Below, one piece after another: positions 12,967-27,281 of a stretch of DNA of 64,000 nt. Numbering within the stretch: position 1 is the first letter of the stretch; each line of letters begins with the position of its first letter. Origin of the DNA: Aciduliprofundum sp. MAR08-339 (GTDB lineage Archaea; Thermoplasmatota; Thermoplasmata; Thermoplasmatales; Aciduliprofundaceae); contig NC_019942.1 in the NCBI RefSeq assembly GCF_000327505.1, forward strand, positions 682,001 to 746,000, read 5' to 3'. The position numbers and the translations under genes are program-made. The notes under the pieces were generated by a model that worked only from the letters and a program-made list of their open reading frames with translations, was not told the origin of the DNA and did not search any database.

Positions 12967-14025
12967 ATGAAGAAGATGATGCCTCATATACCTAACTCAT
13001 ATGTTGATAATATTAGAATTGCATTCTTTGGAGAATTGAGTCAAACTTTTACAAAAAGAGATTATGATATATTGAAAAAGCATTATTATTTAGAGGTATT
13101 ACAACCACCTAAAACCAAGAAGGAATGGATGAAATATCCTAAAAGAGTTAAGGATATAGTTAAGAGAAATGATGTGGTATTTGGCTGGTTTGCAGGGTGG
13201 CACACACTACCTGCAGTTTATTATGCAAGAAAATACGGCAAAAAGTCCATTATCGTTGTGGGAGGTTACGATGCTGCTTGCGAGCCTGAGATAAATTACG
13301 GAGCATTTTCAAATTTGAAAGAGAAAATACCTGCAAAATATGTTTTAGAGCACGCAGATTTGCTTCTTGCAGTATCCCAATTTACAAAAAATGAAATAAT
13401 GAAAAGAGTTGGGCCAAGGGATGTGCTCGTGGTTTATAATGGAGTGGATGTTGATAAGTTCAAGTTATCCGTGAGTAAGGATAGGAAGCTGGTAATAACA
13501 GTAGCCTCTGCGAAAAATGATTTACGGAGAATTAAGGTTAAAGGATTGGATACCTTTGTTAAGGCCGCAAAGTACCTTCCAGATACCAAATTCTTAGTTA
13601 TTGGTGTGGATGGCTCTGCAAGAAAATATTTAGAAAATATAGCACCAAAAAATGTAGAGATAATTGGATATATTTCTCGTGATGAAGACCTCGTTAATTG
13701 GCTTCAGAGGGCGAAGGTGATATGCCAGCTCTCCTATTACGAGGCCTTCGGCCTTGCTCCTGCAGAGGGTATGGCCTGTGGATGTATCCCAGTGGTTACC
13801 AAAGATAAATCTGGAATGTCCGAGTTTGTGAGAGAGGTTGGATTCTATGTACCCTATGGTGATCCCAAAGCAACTGCAGATGCCATAAAAAAAGCCGTAG
13901 AAGCACCTCTGGAATGGGGTCTTAGGGCTAGGGAAATAATCGAAAAAGAGTTTTCCATAAAGAAAAGGGAAGAGATATTGATCAAAATAATTAAAAATGT
14001 TTTGTGGGAAAGGGAATCTATTTAA
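12967..14025 (+). CDS. Glycosyltransferase, GT-B fold (family 4-like)
   Basis: This protein of about 352 residues has the two Rossmann-like halves of GT-B enzymes. The C-terminal half shows the donor-binding pattern YYEAFGLAPAEGMACGCIPV with the EX7E-type glutamate spacing. The N-terminal half contains a VVGGYDAACEPE loop. It probably adds a hexose to a lipid-linked glycan at the cytoplasmic face. Several ATGs (12967, 12976, 12979) are possible after a CATATAAATAA box; 12967 is used. The next gene starts one base after the stop. Confidence 0.86.
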   Translation: MKKMMPHIPNSYVDNIRIAFFGELSQTFTKRDYDILKKHYYLEVLQPPKTKKEWMKYPKRVKDIVKRNDVVFGWFAGWHTLPAVYYARKYGKKSIIVVGGYDAACEPEINYGAFSNLKEKIPAKYVLEHADLLLAVSQFTKNEIMKRVGPRDVLVVYNGVDVDKFKLSVSKDRKLVITVASAKNDLRRIKVKGLDTFVKAAKYLPDTKFLVIGVDGSARKYLENIAPKNVEIIGYISRDEDLVNWLQRAKVICQLSYYEAFGLAPAEGMACGCIPVVTKDKSGMSEFVREVGFYVPYGDPKATADAIKKAVEAPLEWGLRAREIIEKEFSIKKREEILIKIIKNVLWERESI

Positions 14026-14026
14026 A

Positions 14027-15280
14027 ATGATAGAATATTCCCACCTGATGAGCAGCAAACTCTTCAGTGATTTGGAAGTGGTAAAGTCCATGTTAGAAAG
14101 AGAGTCTTTGTTTAGCTATGTATTTAAAATACTTTTAATTTCTTTACAATTCATAAGCAGCAAAATTGCAGCAAGCTCGCCCATCTCTAAAAAAGATAAA
14201 AAGATAGTAATTTTCACGAACCTGTATTACACGGGCAATCCACGGGCGGTATATGAGAGGATGCTTGAAGATTCAAAGTTGAGGAAGAAATATGAAATTT
14301 ACTGGATGGCTCCCCAGCTTTCAACCTTTTTTGAATTGAGAAAAAAGAAGTTGCCTGTGCTGTACAAGCATGGATTACTCAGTGTGAAGAAATATATGAA
14401 CGCGGATCTATGGGTCCTTGCGCATAAAGGTGCTTGGAATGTACCGTTCTTCTTGCAATCAAAATACAAATCTTTGCCAAAATTACAGTTATGGCATGGT
14501 GTGGGTCCCAAAGGTATACATAACACCCAAGAAGATTATAAAATTCACAAGGGTTGGTGTGTACCTTCAGAATTTGTGAAGATGCGACATATAAAAATAT
14601 GGAATGCACCTCCTAATAAACTATATGTTACCGGTGAGGCAAAAATTGATCATCTTCTTTATTTACTAAACCTTCCTAGGAGTAAGTTAGTTTCCCAAAT
14701 TAAAACTAAAGTTAAGGTTAATCCAGAATACAAATTTATACTTTATGCGCCCACTTATGATGTGAAAGTATGGCCTTGGGGGAATGTGAAAAAAGGTATA
14801 GATGAATTTTGTGAAATTTTATCAGAAAAAAATGCCTATTTGTTACTTAGATTACATCCATATTATAAGCCCAGTGAAGAATTAAAGAAGATAATTCGAA
14901 AATGTAGAAATATTATTGACGTTTCAATGAGCAAATGTCCGGATACCATGCTTGTATTGGCTGTCTCGGATATCCTTATTACTGACTGGTCATCCATTTA
15001 TACTGATTTTACTGTTTCCCAAAGACCTATAATATTTTTAAATGTAAAGCCTAACTATTATACCGAGCAAAGGGGAGAGTCATTAATACCACCTCATATG
15101 AGGCCAGGAATAATTGTAAATTCGAAAGAAGAGCTATTTGATGCTTTGAGGAATATTTTTGATAATAAATGGTCTTCAGATAAAAAATTAGAGATTTTGC
15201 AATTCATTAAATTGGTACATGGAAAGGTGGATGGTGAAGCATCTAGAAGGGTTATAGAGGTCATAGAAAAAATAATATGA
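14027..15280 (+). CDS. CDP-glycerol glycerophosphotransferase-like (TagB/TagF) protein
   Basis: This 417-residue protein matches the Glyphos_transf family that moves polyol phosphates from CDP-polyols. The N-terminal third includes KIVIFTNLYYTGNPRAVYE. Conserved motifs follow: LPKLQLWHGVGPKG near residue 155, FILYAPTYD near 233, LRLHPYY near 280 and DILITDWSSIYTDF near 315. In bacteria these enzymes build teichoic-acid-like polymers. In this archaeon it implies phosphodiester-linked polyol or sugar on a surface glycan. It is directly downstream of a glycosyltransferase gene and convergent with a LicC-like cytidylyltransferase gene that could make its CDP-activated donor. Confidence 0.85.
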   Translation: MIEYSHLMSSKLFSDLEVVKSMLERESLFSYVFKILLISLQFISSKIAASSPISKKDKKIVIFTNLYYTGNPRAVYERMLEDSKLRKKYEIYWMAPQLSTFFELRKKKLPVLYKHGLLSVKKYMNADLWVLAHKGAWNVPFFLQSKYKSLPKLQLWHGVGPKGIHNTQEDYKIHKGWCVPSEFVKMRHIKIWNAPPNKLYVTGEAKIDHLLYLLNLPRSKLVSQIKTKVKVNPEYKFILYAPTYDVKVWPWGNVKKGIDEFCEILSEKNAYLLLRLHPYYKPSEELKKIIRKCRNIIDVSMSKCPDTMLVLAVSDILITDWSSIYTDFTVSQRPIIFLNVKPNYYTEQRGESLIPPHMRPGIIVNSKEELFDALRNIFDNKWSSDKKLEILQFIKLVHGKVDGEASRRVIEVIEKII

Positions 15281-18344: not shown

Positions 18345-19601
18345 TTATTTGTTTAGTTTCAACAACCATTTCCACAGAGGTACAAAATTTATCTCGCCTT
18401 TCTCTTCGTAATCCCAGGTAATTACCGTTTTGTTCTTGCAATTTAACTCCTCTCCTGCCTTCTCAAGTGCTTTTATCTCTCTTCTCTCAATTTCATCTCT
18501 TCCCGAAGCGTAGGTCACCTGAATCAATTCTTTCATTCTCTCTCTTTCCTTGAGCACAAAATCAATCTCATAATCTCTGGCTTTATAGTAGTATAGCTCC
18601 CATAGTGGATGATAATTCTTTCTCCTCAGGAGGTCTAGGAACACTATGTTTTCCATATATTTACCATAGTCATCAGAGAATTTACCCACCTGGGAGAGAG
18701 ATGGGTCGCAGAGATACGCTTTTCTGGGCCAGCCCTCTCTTAGATGCACCTTTTCATTGTACCTGCGGAGAAAGAATACAGCCACAGTATCTTCAATTTT
18801 GTCCATGTAATCATATAGTGTATTCTTTCCAAACCGTGAACCGCTGCTTCTGAGTTTTTTTGCAATACTATTTATGCTAAACTCCTTTGCAAAGTTTTGA
18901 ATGATATGCATCATCAGATATCTTGCAAGGGTGATGTTTTTCAGATTGTGTCGCTCAACAAAATCCCTGAATAGGATCATGTCCACATACTCTTTCAATA
19001 TTCTCTCTTTATCACTTCCCATCACAATCTCTGGGAATCCCCCCGTATCAATATACTCTCGAAGAACATTTCTTATTCTACTCTCATCATCTCTGGAAAT
19101 TACTCTCCCAATTTTCACTCCTCTCAATTCCATAAACTCTCTGAAACTGAGTGGTAGAAGAATGTACGAATAGGTTCTGCCCCTCAAACTTGTGGCAATT
19201 TCCCGGCTAAGAAGTTTGGAGGAAGATCCAGTGAGATATATCCTGTACTTGCCCCGATCAATGAGACTTCTGACTGCATGCTCCCATCCATGAACGTTCT
19301 GCACTTCATCAAGAAATACTCTCTCCACATTCATGCCTGTTAACTCGGTGAAGAGCCGCAGAATCTCATATATATCTTTTGCCCTTACATCCAGAAGCCT
19401 TATGTCTTCAAAATTAAGATAAAGCGTCCTGTATCTATCATCTCCAATTAACTGATAGAAATAATATGTCTTTCCCACACGTCTCGGTCCGATCACTGCC
19501 ACAGCCCTATCATCTCTAATTCTGAGTTCCCTCTCCACAATATCCGGAGTTGCCCTGTTCAGCCATTCTGTAAGGTAATCACGCACTTCCTTTGAATTCA
19601 T
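18345..19601 (-). CDS. AAA-type ATPase with DUF4143 domain, paralogue 1
   Basis: This 418-residue protein has an N-terminal AAA_14-type ATPase. Walker A GPRRVGKT is at residues 38-45, Walker B RVFLDEVQN at about 115, and sensor YLTGSSSKLLSRE at about 138. The C-terminal DUF4143 module includes YEIDFVLKERERMKELIQVT, an ExD...QV arrangement resembling PD-(D/E)XK nuclease folds. Members are common and multicopy in archaea, and their role is unknown; defence or mobile-element association is often suggested. Its last 70 codons are almost identical to those of the next gene, whereas the rest is divergent. Confidence 0.87.
   Translation of the reverse strand: MNSKEVRDYLTEWLNRATPDIVERELRIRDDRAVAVIGPRRVGKTYYFYQLIGDDRYRTLYLNFEDIRLLDVRAKDIYEILRLFTELTGMNVERVFLDEVQNVHGWEHAVRSLIDRGKYRIYLTGSSSKLLSREIATSLRGRTYSYILLPLSFREFMELRGVKIGRVISRDDESRIRNVLREYIDTGGFPEIVMGSDKERILKEYVDMILFRDFVERHNLKNITLARYLMMHIIQNFAKEFSINSIAKKLRSSGSRFGKNTLYDYMDKIEDTVAVFFLRRYNEKVHLREGWPRKAYLCDPSLSQVGKFSDDYGKYMENIVFLDLLRRKNYHPLWELYYYKARDYEIDFVLKERERMKELIQVTYASGRDEIERREIKALEKAGEELNCKNKTVITWDYEEKGEINFVPLWKWLLKLNK
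18356..18565. repeat. 210-bp direct repeat in ATPase gene ends, copy 1
   Basis: The 210 bases match 19703-19912 with no length difference and roughly 88% identity by eye. They encode the last 70 or so codons of both ATPase genes, but the adjoining sequence on either side is not similar at the same level. This points to gene conversion or modular exchange between the paralogues. Confidence 0.8.
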
Positions 19602-19691: not shown

Positions 19692-20957
19692 TCAAAGATT
19701 GGGTTTCAACAACCATTTCCACAGAGGTACAAAATTTATCTCTCCCTCTTCCTCGTAATCCCAGGTGATTATCGTCTTGTTTTTGCAATTCAGTTCCTCC
19801 CCTGCTTTCTTAAGCGCTTTTATCTCTCTTCTCTCAATTTCATCTCTTCCAGAAGCATATGTCACTTGGATTAATTCTTTTATTTTCTCTCTTTCCTTGA
19901 GCACAAAATCAACTTCCCTTTGCTGATGATCCTTCCAGTAATATATTTCCATATCCCTATGCCAGTAACTCTTTCGCCGCATGAGCTCCACAGCAACAAC
20001 ATTTTCCATTGCTCTCCAGATATTGGCAGAGAGGTTGAAGCCCACAACCTTCGCCATTCCCGTGTCCATCGCATATACCTTCTTTGGTGCAAGCATCTGC
20101 TCTTTGAGCTTGTATGAAAAGCGTTCCACAGTAAAAGCCAGATAGGCGTTCTGAATGTAATCAAAATACTTTTTCACCGTATGGGGGCTCTTCACTCCGA
20201 GAACATTCTTGATCCTGTTGAATGATATCTCTCTGCCCGTATTGCTCATCACATACCTCCCAAGGGCTCGGAGAACATGTGGGTACTTAACCCCATACCT
20301 GCCCATTATGTCCCGCTCAACAATGTCCCTGTAATTCTCAGATAGAAACATATTTCCAAGTTTATACGCCAGAGGAAAACCTCCCCTCTCAATGTATTCC
20401 TTCAGATGATCTTTTATCTTAGCCCGAGTTGCCGTGGAGTACGCAGAGCCGTTGATCCCGTTGTACTGCAGAAATTCCCTGAAACTGAATGGGTAGAGCA
20501 TGAAATCAATATGTCTGCCCGTGAGATGCGTGGCAAGCTCCCTGCCCATCAATCTTGCGTTGCTTCCAGTTATTATTACTCTCCTCCCAGTTATTATTCT
20601 CGATACGAATTTTTCCCATCCGGGGATGTTCTGAATCTCATCAAAGATTAATGTGTTCACCACACCCTTGAGGGAATAAACGGCTTCAAGCACTGTATTC
20701 AGTTCCTCTCCTTGCATAGCCAGCCGCTCATCTTCAAAGTTCACATAAGCCACATGCTCACCGTTGGCAAGCACCCACGCAAGAAAGGATTTGCCGCATC
20801 TTCTCACCCCGGTTATTACCAGCGCAACATCTGTGTTTATCATACTCTCCACCACTTCCTTGCACTCCCTTTCCACCACATTTCCCTCGGAAAATCTGCG
20901 GTGCATGTCCTCCTCCCTGTCCACAATCGCCGATTTTATCGTGTCCATGGATACCAT
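19692..20957 (-). CDS. AAA-type ATPase with DUF4143 domain, paralogue 2
   Basis: This 421-residue relative of the preceding ATPase has Walker A TGVRRCGKS near residue 53 and Walker B NTLIFDEIQNIPGW near 105. It also has the sensor ITGSNARLMGRELATHLTGR and a C-terminal DUF4143 nuclease-like module with REVDFVLKEREKIKELIQVT. The ATG at 20957 is chosen because an ATTTATTAATTA element lies about 27 bases upstream of it and the resulting length equals that of paralogue 1; the frame stays open to 21008. The last 70 codons nearly match paralogue 1. Confidence 0.86.
   Translation of the reverse strand: MVSMDTIKSAIVDREEDMHRRFSEGNVVERECKEVVESMINTDVALVITGVRRCGKSFLAWVLANGEHVAYVNFEDERLAMQGEELNTVLEAVYSLKGVVNTLIFDEIQNIPGWEKFVSRIITGRRVIITGSNARLMGRELATHLTGRHIDFMLYPFSFREFLQYNGINGSAYSTATRAKIKDHLKEYIERGGFPLAYKLGNMFLSENYRDIVERDIMGRYGVKYPHVLRALGRYVMSNTGREISFNRIKNVLGVKSPHTVKKYFDYIQNAYLAFTVERFSYKLKEQMLAPKKVYAMDTGMAKVVGFNLSANIWRAMENVVAVELMRRKSYWHRDMEIYYWKDHQQREVDFVLKEREKIKELIQVTYASGRDEIERREIKALKKAGEELNCKNKTIITWDYEEEGEINFVPLWKWLLKPNL
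19703..19912. repeat. 210-bp direct repeat in ATPase gene ends, copy 2
   Basis: This is the counterpart of 18356-18565, in the same orientation and about 1.35 kb away. Both begin at GTTTCAACAACCATTTCCAC and end at the codons for DFVLKE. Confidence 0.8.
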
Positions 20958-21047
20958 ATTGTACTGAAGATGCAAATAATTAATAAATCTTTGCATTTGA
21001 GGTGCCATGTTTCTCGAGCAAATATCACAGAGGGATGAAAATCCTAT

Positions 21048-21370: not shown

Positions 21371-22840
21371 TTATGTTTGAGATGATTGTGAGGACGGGTA
21401 ATTTTTCTCATCTTTATGATTCTGTTCCGGGAGGTGGCCATTCGGTATGTTTTCTTGATTTATCTGATTTGCATAAGCGAGAATCTCACCAATACTCTTT
21501 ATCATGGTATCATCTGACTTGGAAAGTATCTCACCCAGGCTTGGTAAAAAGTAATCAAAGAACTTCTCAGAGATATTTTTTATATCTTTGATCTTCTCAT
21601 CCATCTCCCTTTTCATCTCTTCTTTTAGTGTACTCTTCATCTCAGTCATCTCATCCTCTATTTCTCTCCTCATACTCTCCATGTATTTTGGATAAATCCT
21701 GTATCCCCTCTCCTCAAGGCGATTTATGAGAATCTGAGGACTTAGATCCTTCTCCAGGGAGTCGATCTTGTTGCTAACCTTAACAATGGCCTTCGTGCTC
21801 TTTTCATTGAAATCCACAAGATTTTTCACGGTATTTCCTATGAAATTTTCCATACTGCCCATATCCTTTTCCACTTTTTCAACGCGACTCTCCGTAGTAT
21901 TTAACCTCTCCTCAATATTCTGAATTTTGGAACTCAACTCGTTTATCTTTCCAGGGTCTGTAGCATTAACCCTGATTACCTGCGGCTGCTCCTTCTCCTT
22001 GGGTGGTATCTCATCCAGTTCATTCAACGCATACTTTAACTTTGCAAATTCCTTTATGTCCTCCATGAAGGAATCGTGCTCGATTACCGTTATATTTATT
22101 GGTGTGGAAACCTCTCCCGGATCCATATCCTCTGGAGAAACTGTTGCATATACCAGTCCCGTGGCACTTCTGAGATTGATCCATTCACTGAACCTTCTCA
22201 TCTGGGACGGATTGAGCATGCTTAGTACGCCGTTGAGTTGTGTGCTCAACTCGTAGTTAACTGCCTTCAAATGCTTTATTTTTTCATCCTTCTTCTCTAT
22301 TTCTTTCTTCAGAGCCTGGACCTTATCTTCAAGCTCCTGTATTTTGTGCACCTTCTCACTTGCCTCGGTCAGGCTCGCAAGGTACCTCGTTCCGAATTCA
22401 ACGAACTTCTCGGGATCTTCCATTAGCTTACTCATTTTCCTGTGATCGATCCTGGCATTGTGCATCACAAGGAAAAATGCCTGAAAGCCCAGCCCTTCGA
22501 TCACTTGAGACAACCAGAGGTGCTTTCTCTCCATGATCTCCCATTCCTTCGCATAGGACCCGTCAATCGTTGAGGCCAGGAGTGGGTATTTCATCTCCCC
22601 GTAGGCCAGGGTACTTTGCTTGCTGTAGTACGCCTTGCCGTTTATATCTCTGAGCCTTTTTACCACGTAATTCTTCAAATTCTCAAACTCGCTTTTCTTC
22701 ATCCTCAACTCAACCCTCTCGCTCTCCGTTCCGTAGGGAGTGGTGAAGTAGAACCTCGCCACTCCGTTCTTCCACCTGGGCCCTGTGCTTAGGAGGTATC
22801 CTTCCTCGATCAACTCCTCAATCCTATCTGGCACGAACAT
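21371..22840 (-). CDS. Large coiled-coil protein of unknown function
   Basis: This 489-residue soluble protein has no recognised enzymatic motif. The first 160 residues are mixed and include an apparent winged-helix-like start, FVPDRIEELIEEGYLLSTG. Residues about 160-215 form a coiled coil rich in K and E (KIQELEDKVQALKKEIEKKD). A second long coiled coil covers about 290-440 (IQNIEERLNTTESRVEKVEK), and the tail is polar and probably disordered. The ATG at 22840 has a GGTGAT Shine-Dalgarno site four bases before it (22845-22850), and a TATA-like ATATATAATT lies further upstream. It is divergent from the archaeosortase gene. Confidence 0.75.
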   Translation of the reverse strand: MFVPDRIEELIEEGYLLSTGPRWKNGVARFYFTTPYGTESERVELRMKKSEFENLKNYVVKRLRDINGKAYYSKQSTLAYGEMKYPLLASTIDGSYAKEWEIMERKHLWLSQVIEGLGFQAFFLVMHNARIDHRKMSKLMEDPEKFVEFGTRYLASLTEASEKVHKIQELEDKVQALKKEIEKKDEKIKHLKAVNYELSTQLNGVLSMLNPSQMRRFSEWINLRSATGLVYATVSPEDMDPGEVSTPINITVIEHDSFMEDIKEFAKLKYALNELDEIPPKEKEQPQVIRVNATDPGKINELSSKIQNIEERLNTTESRVEKVEKDMGSMENFIGNTVKNLVDFNEKSTKAIVKVSNKIDSLEKDLSPQILINRLEERGYRIYPKYMESMRREIEDEMTEMKSTLKEEMKREMDEKIKDIKNISEKFFDYFLPSLGEILSKSDDTMIKSIGEILAYANQINQENIPNGHLPEQNHKDEKNYPSSQSSQT

Positions 22841-23182
22841 TTTTATCACCCAAAATTATATATCATGCGGACTTTAATAAAACTTTCCATGCTTTGGACT
22901 CGATTCGAGGATGTTCGAGATTTTATTGACTTGCTCTTTTACCTTGTTTTTCTTGGTTTGAGAAAATTCGAGATGCTGGTTCGAATCGAATCTCGGATCG
23001 GATGCTGGAATATGCATTGAAATGCCCTTGTTTGAGAGATTTTTTTCCTTCATGAAGGGGTTTGTGGGGTATATTGGCTTGTATCAAGAAGTTGCGTGAA
23101 AAATTTTCGTGATAAGCTCGGGTTTCGGAAAGGATATCTATCCTGCAAAATCTTAATTTACAACCTGCCCATTTACATTCTA
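22841..23182. other. Divergent regulatory region rich in TTCGA motifs
   Basis: This 340-base gap separates the coiled-coil gene from the archaeosortase gene. TTCGA occurs at 22904, 22914, 22967 and 22980, with an inverted AATCGAA at 22984-22990. ATTCGAGAT (22966-22974) and ATCTCGGAT flank the central site as an imperfect inverted repeat. GATGCTGG is repeated at 22972 and 23001, and a perfect CCTTCATGAAGG palindrome lies at 23047-23058. The density of symmetric motifs suggests operator sites, though no regulator is known. The reading frame at 23096-23182 is considered untranslated. Confidence 0.45.
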
Positions 23183-24100
23183 ATGCTTGATCTCCTACGA
23201 GCGGATGCCTGGGCGCCCGTGATGCATCTCTTCAATCTCACTCAGAAAAAGAAGTTCAGCATATTTTTTTACTCTCTTGTTATCCTTGCATTTCTCTTGG
23301 ATTTCTATGTAATACATTCATCCTTCGGGTTCTTCTCCTATACGCTAATCTTTGCTATATCTGTGATGCTCAATGAGAGAAAATTCTATAAAATTGAGAA
23401 GATTGAAATGTGGGAAGCGTTGCTTGGGCTTTTTATTATAATTTCTTCATTCACTCTTGTCACCCCTGTAAAATGGGTGTTTGTTCCCGGAACTCGTGTG
23501 TTTGGGGTGTTCAACAGCGGAGTTCTGATAATAGGATACTTTGTGATGTTTTATGGATTGAGAAAATATAGGATAATTTTTCCATTTTTAATATTCTATG
23601 GAGCCATGGTGATTCTCAACGGTACTTGGGGATTTGTTGTAAATGATTTCGCTCAGATGTATATAGCACCCATTTCCTCTCATCTAGCATATTCTTTCCT
23701 GAAGCTTCTGGGCTATCCAGTGAGCATCTCGGGCACGACCATAACCATAATAAGTCAAAGGGGCACGCCCGTCTCCGCAACCGTAGCCGGCGCATGCTCG
23801 GGAATTGAGGGTATGACGCTTTCCGCGGTAATGCTTGTTGGATTGCTTATGGGCTCAAAGATGAAGTATGTGTGGCGAGCGCTGGTGATACTCATTGCCG
23901 CTCTCACCATGTTCTTCATCAATGTACTTCGCCTCTTTCTCACATTTATGGCCGCATACTATTGGGGACACGAGGGTCTGAACCTTGCCCATGAGTGGCT
24001 AGGGAATATTCTATTTTTAGTGTTTATTATAATCTATTGGGTAGGAGTAGAGAAAATATTCGTTCTAAGGAGGAATACAAAGTGTTTAAAAGATTATTGA
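23183..24100 (+). CDS. Archaeosortase/exosortase family transpeptidase
   Basis: This integral membrane protein of about 305 residues has around eight hydrophobic segments. The three hallmark catalytic residues are visible: Cys in AGACSGIEGM (about 205), Arg in FINVLRLF (about 250) and His in LAHEWLGNILF (about 270). Archaeosortases cleave proteins carrying a C-terminal sorting tripartite signal and attach them to a lipid in the membrane, typically S-layer or other surface glycoproteins. The start at 23183 is preferred to GTG 23096 because a TTAATTTA box lies about 27 bases before it. A flippase and a GT-C gene follow. No sorting-signal substrate gene is seen in the window. Confidence 0.88.
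   Translation: MLDLLRADAWAPVMHLFNLTQKKKFSIFFYSLVILAFLLDFYVIHSSFGFFSYTLIFAISVMLNERKFYKIEKIEMWEALLGLFIIISSFTLVTPVKWVFVPGTRVFGVFNSGVLIIGYFVMFYGLRKYRIIFPFLIFYGAMVILNGTWGFVVNDFAQMYIAPISSHLAYSFLKLLGYPVSISGTTITIISQRGTPVSATVAGACSGIEGMTLSAVMLVGLLMGSKMKYVWRALVILIAALTMFFINVLRLFLTFMAAYYWGHEGLNLAHEWLGNILFLVFIIIYWVGVEKIFVLRRNTKCLKDY
24066..24073 (+). promoter_or_regulatory. Shine-Dalgarno site deciding the flippase start
   Basis: TAAGGAGG lies eight bases before GTG 24082, inside the end of the archaeosortase gene. It favours this GTG over the longer open frame starting at 23995, and implies translational coupling. Confidence 0.6.
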
Positions 24101-25332
24101 AATTCTTTGGAGTGGATATAGGCGAATTGAAAGCTATATCTGGAATTGCGATTGGAAATGTTATTACCCAAATACTCCGATTTATTTTCTGGTTCATTGT
24201 AGTATGGATGGTAACACCTGAGAAGTATGGATATATACGTTACGCCTTTACCATAGCCAACTTTTTTTTACTACCTGCAGCCTCTGGTTTTCCTGCAGCG
24301 ATTACTAAATTTATTTCAGAGAATTTAGATGATAAGAAAAAGATGAAAATATATGCCTTCCAAACCATTTTTATTGATTTTGTGATGATTCTTATAACAA
24401 CTTCTATAGCCATTGGATTTGGTATTTTTTTACCTTATAACATTCCTATTATAAGTTCTATTTTTATTTTGATAACGGGTTTATATTATTTATATATCTC
24501 TTATATTAGAGGTCTTATAGATGTCAGGAGACTTATAGGATTTGGGGTGAGTGTAAGTGCCTCAAGGGTTGTACTAATTATATTATTCTGGCTTATGAAT
24601 TTACAAAGCATATTTTGGATTTTATTTGCCTACTCACTTCCATTATTCATAGGTATATTGTCTATGGAGCTTTTGAAAGAAAAAACGGTAAAGTTTGAGA
24701 TTTTCCATCTTGATCGTTCTATTCTCCTTGAAATTATAATTTTTGCCGTTCCTGGGATTTTATCTACAACTCTCTGGACTATAACAGGACAAGTAGATAT
24801 TGTTTTTATAAAAAGTTATTATGGATATTCAGTTGTTGGATCCTATTCATTAGCAAAAACTATAACCTCCCTTATAGGATTTGTAAACGGTGCAATTATT
24901 GTGCTTCAAATGCCAAAGGTCTCAAGTTTTAAGAAAAATCACAAATATATTTATAATTATACTAAAAAATCTTTGAAAATTGGATTTTTGGCTACATCTA
25001 TATTTGCAATAATGCTGTATGTTTTTGTAAGATCTATATTTGATTACCTTTTTCCCTCCGCCTATAAAAATTCCATACCATTAATTTATATAATGATTCC
25101 AGGTATGATATTTGCTGGACTTTTTTCCATATTAGCTGCAGATTGGACTGGATATGGAAAACCCATTGAGAATGCAAAAATTATGTTTTTTGGAATGATT
25201 TTTGTAATAGGTTTAGACTTTTTACTAGTACCTCTATATGGTTCTACAGGTGCGGCTGTTGTATACACACTTTCTCAATGTTTTATATTTATATTGATGT
25301 ATATTAAAACAATGAAATATTTTAGAGCATGA
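24082..25332 (+). CDS. Lipid-linked oligosaccharide flippase (Wzx/MVF-type)
   Basis: This 416-residue protein has about 12-14 hydrophobic segments and the polysaccharide-biosynthesis pattern near the N terminus: TPEKYGYIRYAFTIANFFLL, with conserved GFPAAITKFISE. The middle FAVPGILSTTLWTITGQVDI is also typical of MOP-superfamily flippases. It would move the lipid-linked glycan from the cytoplasmic to the outer face. It overlaps the archaeosortase gene by 19 bases and uses a GTG start with a Shine-Dalgarno site, so the two are coupled. The gene is clearly AT-rich. Confidence 0.85.
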   Translation: MFKRLLKFFGVDIGELKAISGIAIGNVITQILRFIFWFIVVWMVTPEKYGYIRYAFTIANFFLLPAASGFPAAITKFISENLDDKKKMKIYAFQTIFIDFVMILITTSIAIGFGIFLPYNIPIISSIFILITGLYYLYISYIRGLIDVRRLIGFGVSVSASRVVLIILFWLMNLQSIFWILFAYSLPLFIGILSMELLKEKTVKFEIFHLDRSILLEIIIFAVPGILSTTLWTITGQVDIVFIKSYYGYSVVGSYSLAKTITSLIGFVNGAIIVLQMPKVSSFKKNHKYIYNYTKKSLKIGFLATSIFAIMLYVFVRSIFDYLFPSAYKNSIPLIYIMIPGMIFAGLFSILAADWTGYGKPIENAKIMFFGMIFVIGLDFLLVPLYGSTGAAVVYTLSQCFIFILMYIKTMKYFRA

Positions 25333-25394
25333 AAGAAATAAATTATAAATATTTATAGTACATGCTAAATTCACAAACATATGAGTGAGTATCT

Positions 25395-27281
25395 ATGAAC
25401 AAGAAAACCGTTTTTATTACCCTTATCGGTATACTGCTTATAGGTATAATGATAAGCACATCTCAGGAATTTCTCTGGGGGGTTGATACAATAGGAGGAA
25501 CTGATGAGTTGCATCACTTTTCAAGGGCATATGCCATAGCGAATAGATGGGTGGATCCTTATCATGAGCCTGATAATCCCAAGTTCTTTGATTTTTATCC
25601 TGCAGGTTTTCATTTACTGTTAGGAGAGTTTATTCTTCTTTCAGGTTTTACATCAGTATATGTACTTTATATAATTTTGAAAATTTTGTACTTTTTGATC
25701 CCAGCCATTATAGTTTTTCTTATAGGAACAAAGGTTGATTGGAAAGTTGGCTTGTTATCGGTGTTTTTCCTAGCCACGTATTTTGAGATTCTGACAAGTG
25801 TTCATAATTACTATATATATGTAAGTACTCCTCAAAATTATCTGAATACAAATTTTATTACTATAACAAGTTTTTTCAGCACAATATTACTCTATTTACT
25901 ATTTATTAAAGCAAGGGATAAAGAGATATTTTTGGGGAGTTTGATTACATTGTTTGGAGTTGTTCATGGAATCTCTCACATAAGCACCTATATAGGATAT
26001 ATATTTAATTTAACGAGCTTTTTGATCATATTTTTTATATATTTTGTTTTCAAAAAGAATTTTACACAATCCATAAAAATGGTTAAACTTCTTCTTTACA
26101 CTTTCCTCTCTCTTCCTCTTTCTTTCTTTATTTATTATTTCCCTATGTACCCGGTAATTTTAAATCCCCCTTATCGATTTAAATACTTTTGGCCCCCTTT
26201 TATACCCCAAAGTTTCTTAGATTATGCACCCCATATTTTTATTATATCTTTAATTTCAATAATCATAATTCTTATCTATTTAACAAAATTTATTCATTAT
26301 TCTAAATATAGAGGATATTTAAGCTTTCCTCGTATTAGTAAATATATCATTTTCATATTTGGGTTACTTTATATAATTTTATATTTAACCATTGTATACA
26401 AAGTTACTACAAATCCAAGGGATTATTCATTTTCGGGGTTCATACTTCTTGCAGGAGTTTTCCCTACTTACTTTCCTCATAGAGTATATTCTTATATTTC
26501 CTTTTTTTCTCTTATTGTTGGATTTTTGATGTTTATCCTATCTGCATTTGTTATAACTTTTTATTATAAAATTATAAATAAAACACATTATTTAAATTAT
26601 ATCCTTATAATGTATATAATATTTTATGTCACGTGGTTTATTTTTGCTATAATTATTCATTATTATGCAGATAGGATAATATATTTTAGATTTTTATTGC
26701 CTTTAGTGTATTCTCTCGCTATATTTCTTGTGTTATCTTTCAAAGTTTTTTCTATAGGTAAGAAAAAAATTGTTAGAAATGTGGTGGTGATTGGGATAAT
26801 ATTCGTTATTTTGTCTACAAATGTTGTTTCTCAAATAGCGAAAGAACCATCAATACGTGAAGAATTTGAAATTCCACGACCTATTAGGGGTTCTGTGTCC
26901 CCACCTTTAATTTATTCTTCTTTGGCAGTTGTAACTAATACATTAACTAAGCCTGGGGAATATGTTCTAGCTTCAGGGGCTACTTTGCCAGCTCTTGCCA
27001 CAACTACCCATATTAAGTTACCTACCTACTCTTATTCTCTAACCTACACAGATCATAGAAATTGGAGTATCACCATAAACGCTTTGAGAGGTAAAAATAT
27101 GAATATCTTCTTTGAAAGATATAATGCTAGGTATTTGATAATAGGATATGGAGATCTAACAATGGGTAGGTACCCTTGGGGTTGGCACACGGCACCTATA
27201 TCCTCATATGATAAAAACCCACATTTGTTGCTGATATATGAAGGTAATGGTGGTGAAAGAATATATTTATGGATAAAATAA
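25395..27281 (+). CDS. GT-C fold membrane glycosyltransferase
   Basis: This 628-residue protein has a membrane segment at about 5-25, then an extracytoplasmic loop with the acidic GT-C motif GGTDELHHFSRAYAI at about 35-49 and FYPAGFHLLLG. Roughly ten further hydrophobic segments follow, and a C-terminal outside domain of about 140 residues ends YEGNGGERIYLWIK. GT-C enzymes use polyprenyl-phosphate-linked sugars and act on the outer face. It is not STT3, since no WWDYG motif is present, so it probably adds an outer sugar to a surface glycan or lipid. It follows the flippase by 62 bases on the same strand. Confidence 0.75.
   Translation: MNKKTVFITLIGILLIGIMISTSQEFLWGVDTIGGTDELHHFSRAYAIANRWVDPYHEPDNPKFFDFYPAGFHLLLGEFILLSGFTSVYVLYIILKILYFLIPAIIVFLIGTKVDWKVGLLSVFFLATYFEILTSVHNYYIYVSTPQNYLNTNFITITSFFSTILLYLLFIKARDKEIFLGSLITLFGVVHGISHISTYIGYIFNLTSFLIIFFIYFVFKKNFTQSIKMVKLLLYTFLSLPLSFFIYYFPMYPVILNPPYRFKYFWPPFIPQSFLDYAPHIFIISLISIIIILIYLTKFIHYSKYRGYLSFPRISKYIIFIFGLLYIILYLTIVYKVTTNPRDYSFSGFILLAGVFPTYFPHRVYSYISFFSLIVGFLMFILSAFVITFYYKIINKTHYLNYILIMYIIFYVTWFIFAIIIHYYADRIIYFRFLLPLVYSLAIFLVLSFKVFSIGKKKIVRNVVVIGIIFVILSTNVVSQIAKEPSIREEFEIPRPIRGSVSPPLIYSSLAVVTNTLTKPGEYVLASGATLPALATTTHIKLPTYSYSLTYTDHRNWSITINALRGKNMNIFFERYNARYLIIGYGDLTMGRYPWGWHTAPISSYDKNPHLLLIYEGNGGERIYLWIK

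Follow-up and report, generated by a model that had tools for sequence, protein, structure and literature searches.

The DNA studied here is a 64,000-nucleotide stretch of Aciduliprofundum sp. MAR08-339 (genome G000; contig NC_019942.1, positions 682,001 to 746,000), referred to below as the window. In surroundings rich in glycosyltransferases, three genes follow one another on the forward strand, namely, an ArtC-like archaeosortase of 305 aa (23183-24100), a MOP-superfamily oligosaccharide-lipid flippase of 416 aa (24082-25332), and a large multi-spanning membrane protein with a soluble C-terminal part (25395-27281). An earlier note on this DNA had placed an archaeosortase, an overlapping flippase, and a GT-C transferase at these positions in a glycan locus, with the targets of the archaeosortase outside the window. 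This outline holds, except for the GT-C label and for the single transcript that the note expected over all three genes.

The protein encoded at 23183-24100 belongs to the exosortase/archaeosortase superfamily. It exceeds the curated cut-offs of both PF09721 (73.8 bits; cut-off 25.7) and TIGR04178 (49.8 bits; cut-off 23), and the catalytic residues that had been read from the sequence are present as Cys205, Arg250, and His270, which are invariant in an alignment with six relatives. The top specific model is that of ArtC, TIGR03762, at 63.5 bits, which is below the equivalog cut-off of 100. Of two possible starts, GTG 23096 and ATG 23183, the latter was taken because it fits the alignment to relatives. 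The genome, a single contig of 1.437 Mb, yielded no other exosortase-family gene. Membership of the archaeosortase A family was not found: no PGF-CTERM signal scored over the cut-off (the single match was sub-threshold and not C-terminal, and was discarded), and phosphatidylserine (PS) decarboxylase was undetected in the genome, PssA not having been searched for genome-wide. For the proteins of the locus, no chain of the PDB was matched by sequence and a fold search returned nothing, and the AlphaFold models were poor owing to shallow alignment depth.

The second protein is a member of the Wzx/MOP flippases, with 71.8 bits against PF01943 (gathering cut-off 28.2) and 30.5 bits against PF13440. 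Its GTG start at 24082 lies within the archaeosortase gene, which has its stop at 24100, giving the 19-base overlap reported earlier. The Shine-Dalgarno sequence of the flippase, AGGAGG (24068-24073), likewise falls within the coding sequence of the archaeosortase, 8 nt ahead of the GTG, and translation of the flippase may be coupled to that of the archaeosortase via this site. Similar GGAG/GGAGG sequences are present at the junctions of the relatives G021, G033, and G039, while the junction of G009 is without one. Since the two genes overlap and leave zero intergenic space, there is no room for a promoter and a terminator between them; a scan for such signals along the locus, built for bacterial ones, showed no excess over shuffled sequences.

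The overlap is conserved among relatives. Of the six genomes with an intact archaeosortase gene, five (G000, G021, G009, G033, and G039) show it, with a length of 19-23 bp. The archaeosortases form two classes that are approximately 25% identical (24-26%), and a similar overlap is found behind both. The flippases themselves change: across lineages, they are 22-28% identical, and between G000 and G021, where the archaeosortases are 69-70% identical, the flippases are without detectable homology (E 0.3). The archaeosortase has also diverged at its site: within the genus, backbone genes are 77-81% identical to those of G004, while the archaeosortase and its divergently transcribed coiled-coil neighbour, located at the same site, are 24-28% identical. 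A second case of the pairing is seen in G373 (locus L153), where a more distant archaeosortase of the class is flanked by a GalU-like gene on its upstream side and, 45 bp downstream, by a flippase gene.

At the junction, the composition changes abruptly. The G+C content is 41.6% in the archaeosortase gene and 30% in the flippase gene and beyond, and within positions 24000-24100, it falls from 0.50 to 0.27, while the identity to the G021 gene falls from 0.62-0.80 to 0.38, collapsing within the final ~80 bp of the archaeosortase gene. The fall in GC indicates that an exchangeable low-GC glycan cassette has its edge at the archaeosortase, although C-terminal tails diverge fast anyway, the exact cassette edge is uncertain, and no comparable GC drop is seen in G033 or G039. 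The archaeosortase thus probably stays in place at the border of a surface-glycan cassette that can be exchanged and of which the flippase would be the first gene. The same break is what would be expected if the overlap were an accident of recombination, with the archaeosortase as the last conserved gene at the border of a replaceable glycan island, a flippase usually as the first gene inside it, and the two serving unrelated pathways. The non-homologous flippases behind closely related archaeosortases and the presence of rmlA, rather than a flippase, as the next gene in G004 also fit such an accident. Nevertheless, it is rather unlikely, since random cassette edges are not expected to repeatedly put a flippase start 19-23 bp inside an archaeosortase gene, a similar overlap lies behind two classes of archaeosortase as distant as those described above, and a flippase also follows the archaeosortase of the distant relative G373.

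Candidate substrates are encoded elsewhere in the genome. Sorting-signal matches inside the window (G000:C1:682001-746000) are zero, as the earlier note had stated, and the genome scan that it proposed yielded approximately ten proteins with PEF-CTERM-like ends, consisting of PE[FL], a membrane span, and RRR. These were located by profile search, by which proteins with other C-terminal motifs would escape. The curated PEF-CTERM model TIGR03024 has five matches in the genome, one of them over the cut-off, with tails of the form VPE[FL]-span-basic; the signals of this genome are of the VPE[FL]/IPE[FL] type. A family profile made from 20 such C-terminal tails from genomes of the same GTDB family adds five proteins, namely, VPEFTALVPVLAVLIVAIAVRRRH, IPELNYLLILLPLIAAMLLLRRRW, VPELSFGVLVPLLAVAVILYLRRK, VPELNAAYIMVAFIAIVLLFRSRVRG, and IPELNGILLVFLIVLVVYFVRRKR, of which the last two are weak matches (E 0.02 for VPELNAAYIMVAFIAIVLLFRSRVRG and 0.07 for IPELNGILLVFLIVLVVYFVRRKR). 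All matches, the five of the curated model and the five of the family profile, sit at extreme C-termini. In 15 relatives from the order that lack an archaeosortase, there were just three weak partial matches, with E-values of at least 0.024. Recognisable domains, mostly of extracellular type, are present in all of the first five proteins (beta-helix/NosD with fn3; BNR; GH25 with Amidase_6 and SH3; PLD; and pro-kumamolisin with CARDB), and four of these five have an N-terminal signal-like hydrophobic segment. Among the candidates are thus a muramidase (GH25), a protease of the kumamolisin type, and a PLD-like protein.

The muramidase (L052:1242-3017; G000:C1 ~504.2-506.0 kb) combines GH25, Amidase_6, and SH3 with a PEF-CTERM-like tail. 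The GH25 muramidase of A. boonei kills bacteria (PMC4241558, PMC12352652), and the passages found on it make no mention of archaeosortase-mediated surface display. The tail predicts that the GH25 muramidase of the present genome, whose family is antibacterial in A. boonei, would be displayed on the archaeal surface.

Within the order, TIGR03024 matches at E<=0.01 occur almost exclusively in this family, G005 being the sole genome beyond it to have one. The archaeosortase was found in G000, G004, G009, G021, G033, and G039 and, as a fragment at a contig end, in G013, which amounts to 7 of the 10 genomes that bear the island epimerase as opposed to 0 of the 8 that lack it (hypergeometric probability 0.004). 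Of the 11 archaeosortase-negative metagenome-assembled genomes (MAGs) of the family, eight are without the epimerase of the island, and in the remaining three it is on contigs of 4.1-6.2 kb, so the absence of the archaeosortase is mostly assembly loss. The notion that family MAGs carry PEF-CTERM proteins but have no archaeosortase was accordingly dropped, the G013 gene being cut by a contig end and islands missing from the assemblies. The PEF-CTERM tails in family MAGs in which no archaeosortase was found would otherwise favor the view that the PE[FL]-CTERM tails, with their conserved linker, serve simply as stop-transfer anchors, the archaeosortase having other, unrecognised substrates. This is very improbable, given the state of these assemblies, the occurrence of a common motif exactly ahead of the membrane span in unrelated proteins, and the PEF-CTERM gene (IPEF...RRLKID) that adjoins the archaeosortase in G009, where it is divergent and ~410 bp away.

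What the archaeosortase joins its substrates to may be reflected in the gene that follows it. Among 70 other archaeosortase loci of the phylum, a sample weighted toward high-scoring archaeosortases, the next gene was assigned by a homology test to PssD in 26, PssA in 6, and a flippase in 1, with 37 other or unclassified; an archaetidylserine decarboxylase or synthase thus occupies the downstream slot in 32 of the 70. As a separate observation on Thermoplasmatota loci (L065-L094 and L128-L167), PssD often lies directly behind the archaeosortase with a 4-bp overlap, and PssA lies behind long archaeosortase open reading frames. In the present genome and 17 family relatives, PS decarboxylase was undetected, save for a marginal 87-aa frame in G004. 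The lipid enzymes in this slot elsewhere, together with the lack of a detectable PS decarboxylase here, suggested that the flippase may be what supplies the acceptor: the archaeosortase would join proteins to a flippase-delivered lipid-linked glycan and not to an archaetidyl phospholipid, producing an archaeal glycolipid anchor. The logic would be comparable to that of the glycosylphosphatidylinositol anchor or of a bacterial sortase with lipid II. As the flippase fills the operon slot of the lipid enzymes, the slot beside the archaeosortase would, on this idea, tell the acceptor. The idea is quite improbable as it stands; its interest is that acceptors are known for few archaeosortases and exosortases and that the downstream slot would become a genomic predictor of the acceptor, with a testable case in a group that has cultured members.

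Somewhat doubtful is the possibility that the flippase feeds N- or O-glycosylation, that coexpression ensures the glycosylation of substrates before or during anchoring, and that the anchor is an ordinary archaeal phospholipid. The glycosyltransferase-rich surroundings are consistent with this, as are an STT3 family named 'archaeosortase A system-associated' (PMC9128505) and the S-layer glycoprotein of H. volcanii, which is both a glycoprotein and a lipid-anchored ArtA substrate (PMC7157517). Against it, an oligosaccharyltransferase was not identified in the window (the rest of the genome was not searched for one), and what is undetected in this genome is the decarboxylase to which ArtA-dependent maturation has been linked in H. 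volcanii (PMC7157517).

Taken together, these data are best explained by an ArtC-like archaeosortase that acts on the approximately ten PEF-CTERM-like proteins and has the flippase as its partner, so that anchoring and glycan export are likely to be made together; most likely, archaeosortase and flippase serve one cell coat. The archaeosortase would be a membrane cysteine transpeptidase that recognises the PE[FL] motif, the membrane span, and the Arg/Lys C-terminal tail of secreted proteins and, by analogy with H. volcanii ArtA, would cleave these at the signal and transfer them to an acceptor at the outer face of the membrane. With the archaeosortase at the fixed edge of the low-GC cassette and the flippase as its first gene, anchoring and glycan-coat export would be co-made despite replacement of the glycan genes, and surface-protein anchoring would thereby be tied to an exchangeable glycan cassette. 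The match to exosortase-family models, the lack of space for a promoter and terminator, and the existence of candidate substrates, on which the earlier note had staked its reading, all speak for it. Several observations weigh against it. Overlap alone is weak evidence because genes often overlap in glycan operons, and it is not obligatory, as the arrangement in G004 (a convergent rmlA next, with the flippase 3.3 kb off) demonstrates. The TIGR03024 scores of the genome's own signals are weak (four at 18-23 bits, the fifth at 14), and only the five added proteins are independent of the family profile since the first five tails were in its training set. Lastly, PEF-CTERM proteins do occur in the family MAGs in which the archaeosortase was not found, although the missing islands of these assemblies confound this observation.

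The third gene (25395-27281) encodes a protein with zero family matches in Pfam, NCBIfam, and the PDB sequences, and its structure model (pLDDT 42) is too poor for use; GT-C stays a tentative label, an impression that reflects the number of membrane spans. In G009, a 37% identical homolog lies downstream of the flippase, a few genes away. The gene is separated from the flippase by a 62-bp gap that contains an A+T-rich, TATA-like stretch (25340-25359, forward strand), recognised by inspection, and it may own a promoter; a single transcript over 23183-27281 is therefore not implied.

Further genes accompany the locus. The coiled-coil protein (21371-22849, reverse strand), divergent from the archaeosortase, has homologs at the same place in L046 (10896-12028), L047 (4806-6125), and L048 (3-998), and occurs in all four genus members and as two frames in G004. 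It has diverged as far as the archaeosortase (25-28% identity) and is a possible functional partner. AAA_14/DUF4143 ATPase genes with a common C-terminal tail (18345-19601 and 19692-21008, reverse strand; L045:13191-19162; L047:2704-3996) cluster by the archaeosortase locus in several genomes, with four consecutive copies in G009, and are possibly mobile or island-associated. The gene at 13997-15280 resembles CDP-glycerol:poly(glycerophosphate) glycerophosphotransferase (PF04464, 122.5 bits; TarF-like), here in an archaeal glycan island.

Three known systems invite comparison. Archaeosortase C with PEF-CTERM (TIGR03762/TIGR03024) is the best specific family and shares the PEF, membrane span, and basic tail found in this genome, but the archaeosortase described here scores 63.5 against its cut-off of 100, the VPE[FL]/IPE[FL] signals are mostly below cut-off, and the flippase overlaps. 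Archaeosortase A with PssA/PssD (Haloferax, Methanosarcina; PMC7157517) shares the superfamily, the Cys/Arg/His residues, and, in many genomes, a partner gene directly downstream; that partner makes lipid as an archaetidylserine synthase or decarboxylase, whereas here it is a flippase and the decarboxylase is undetected. The bacterial exosortase EpsH/XrtA (PMC1569441) likewise has an exosortase-family gene in a surface-glycan locus and substrates scattered over the genome, whereas the present case is archaeal, has another signal and no outer membrane, and has a flippase start overlapping the sortase gene. The rarity that the earlier note had claimed for such coupling stands in part. The link between exosortase-family and glycan genes was already known from bacterial exopolysaccharide loci (PMC1569441) and from the STT3 family mentioned above (PMC9128505), while the overlapping flippase partner, in a slot often occupied by archaetidylserine enzymes behind other archaeosortases, seems undescribed, no description of an archaeosortase/flippase gene pair having been found in a limited look at literature naming both. 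The kind of system is thus already known; what sets this case apart is the undetected decarboxylase, the flippase partner, and its conservation through cassette exchange.

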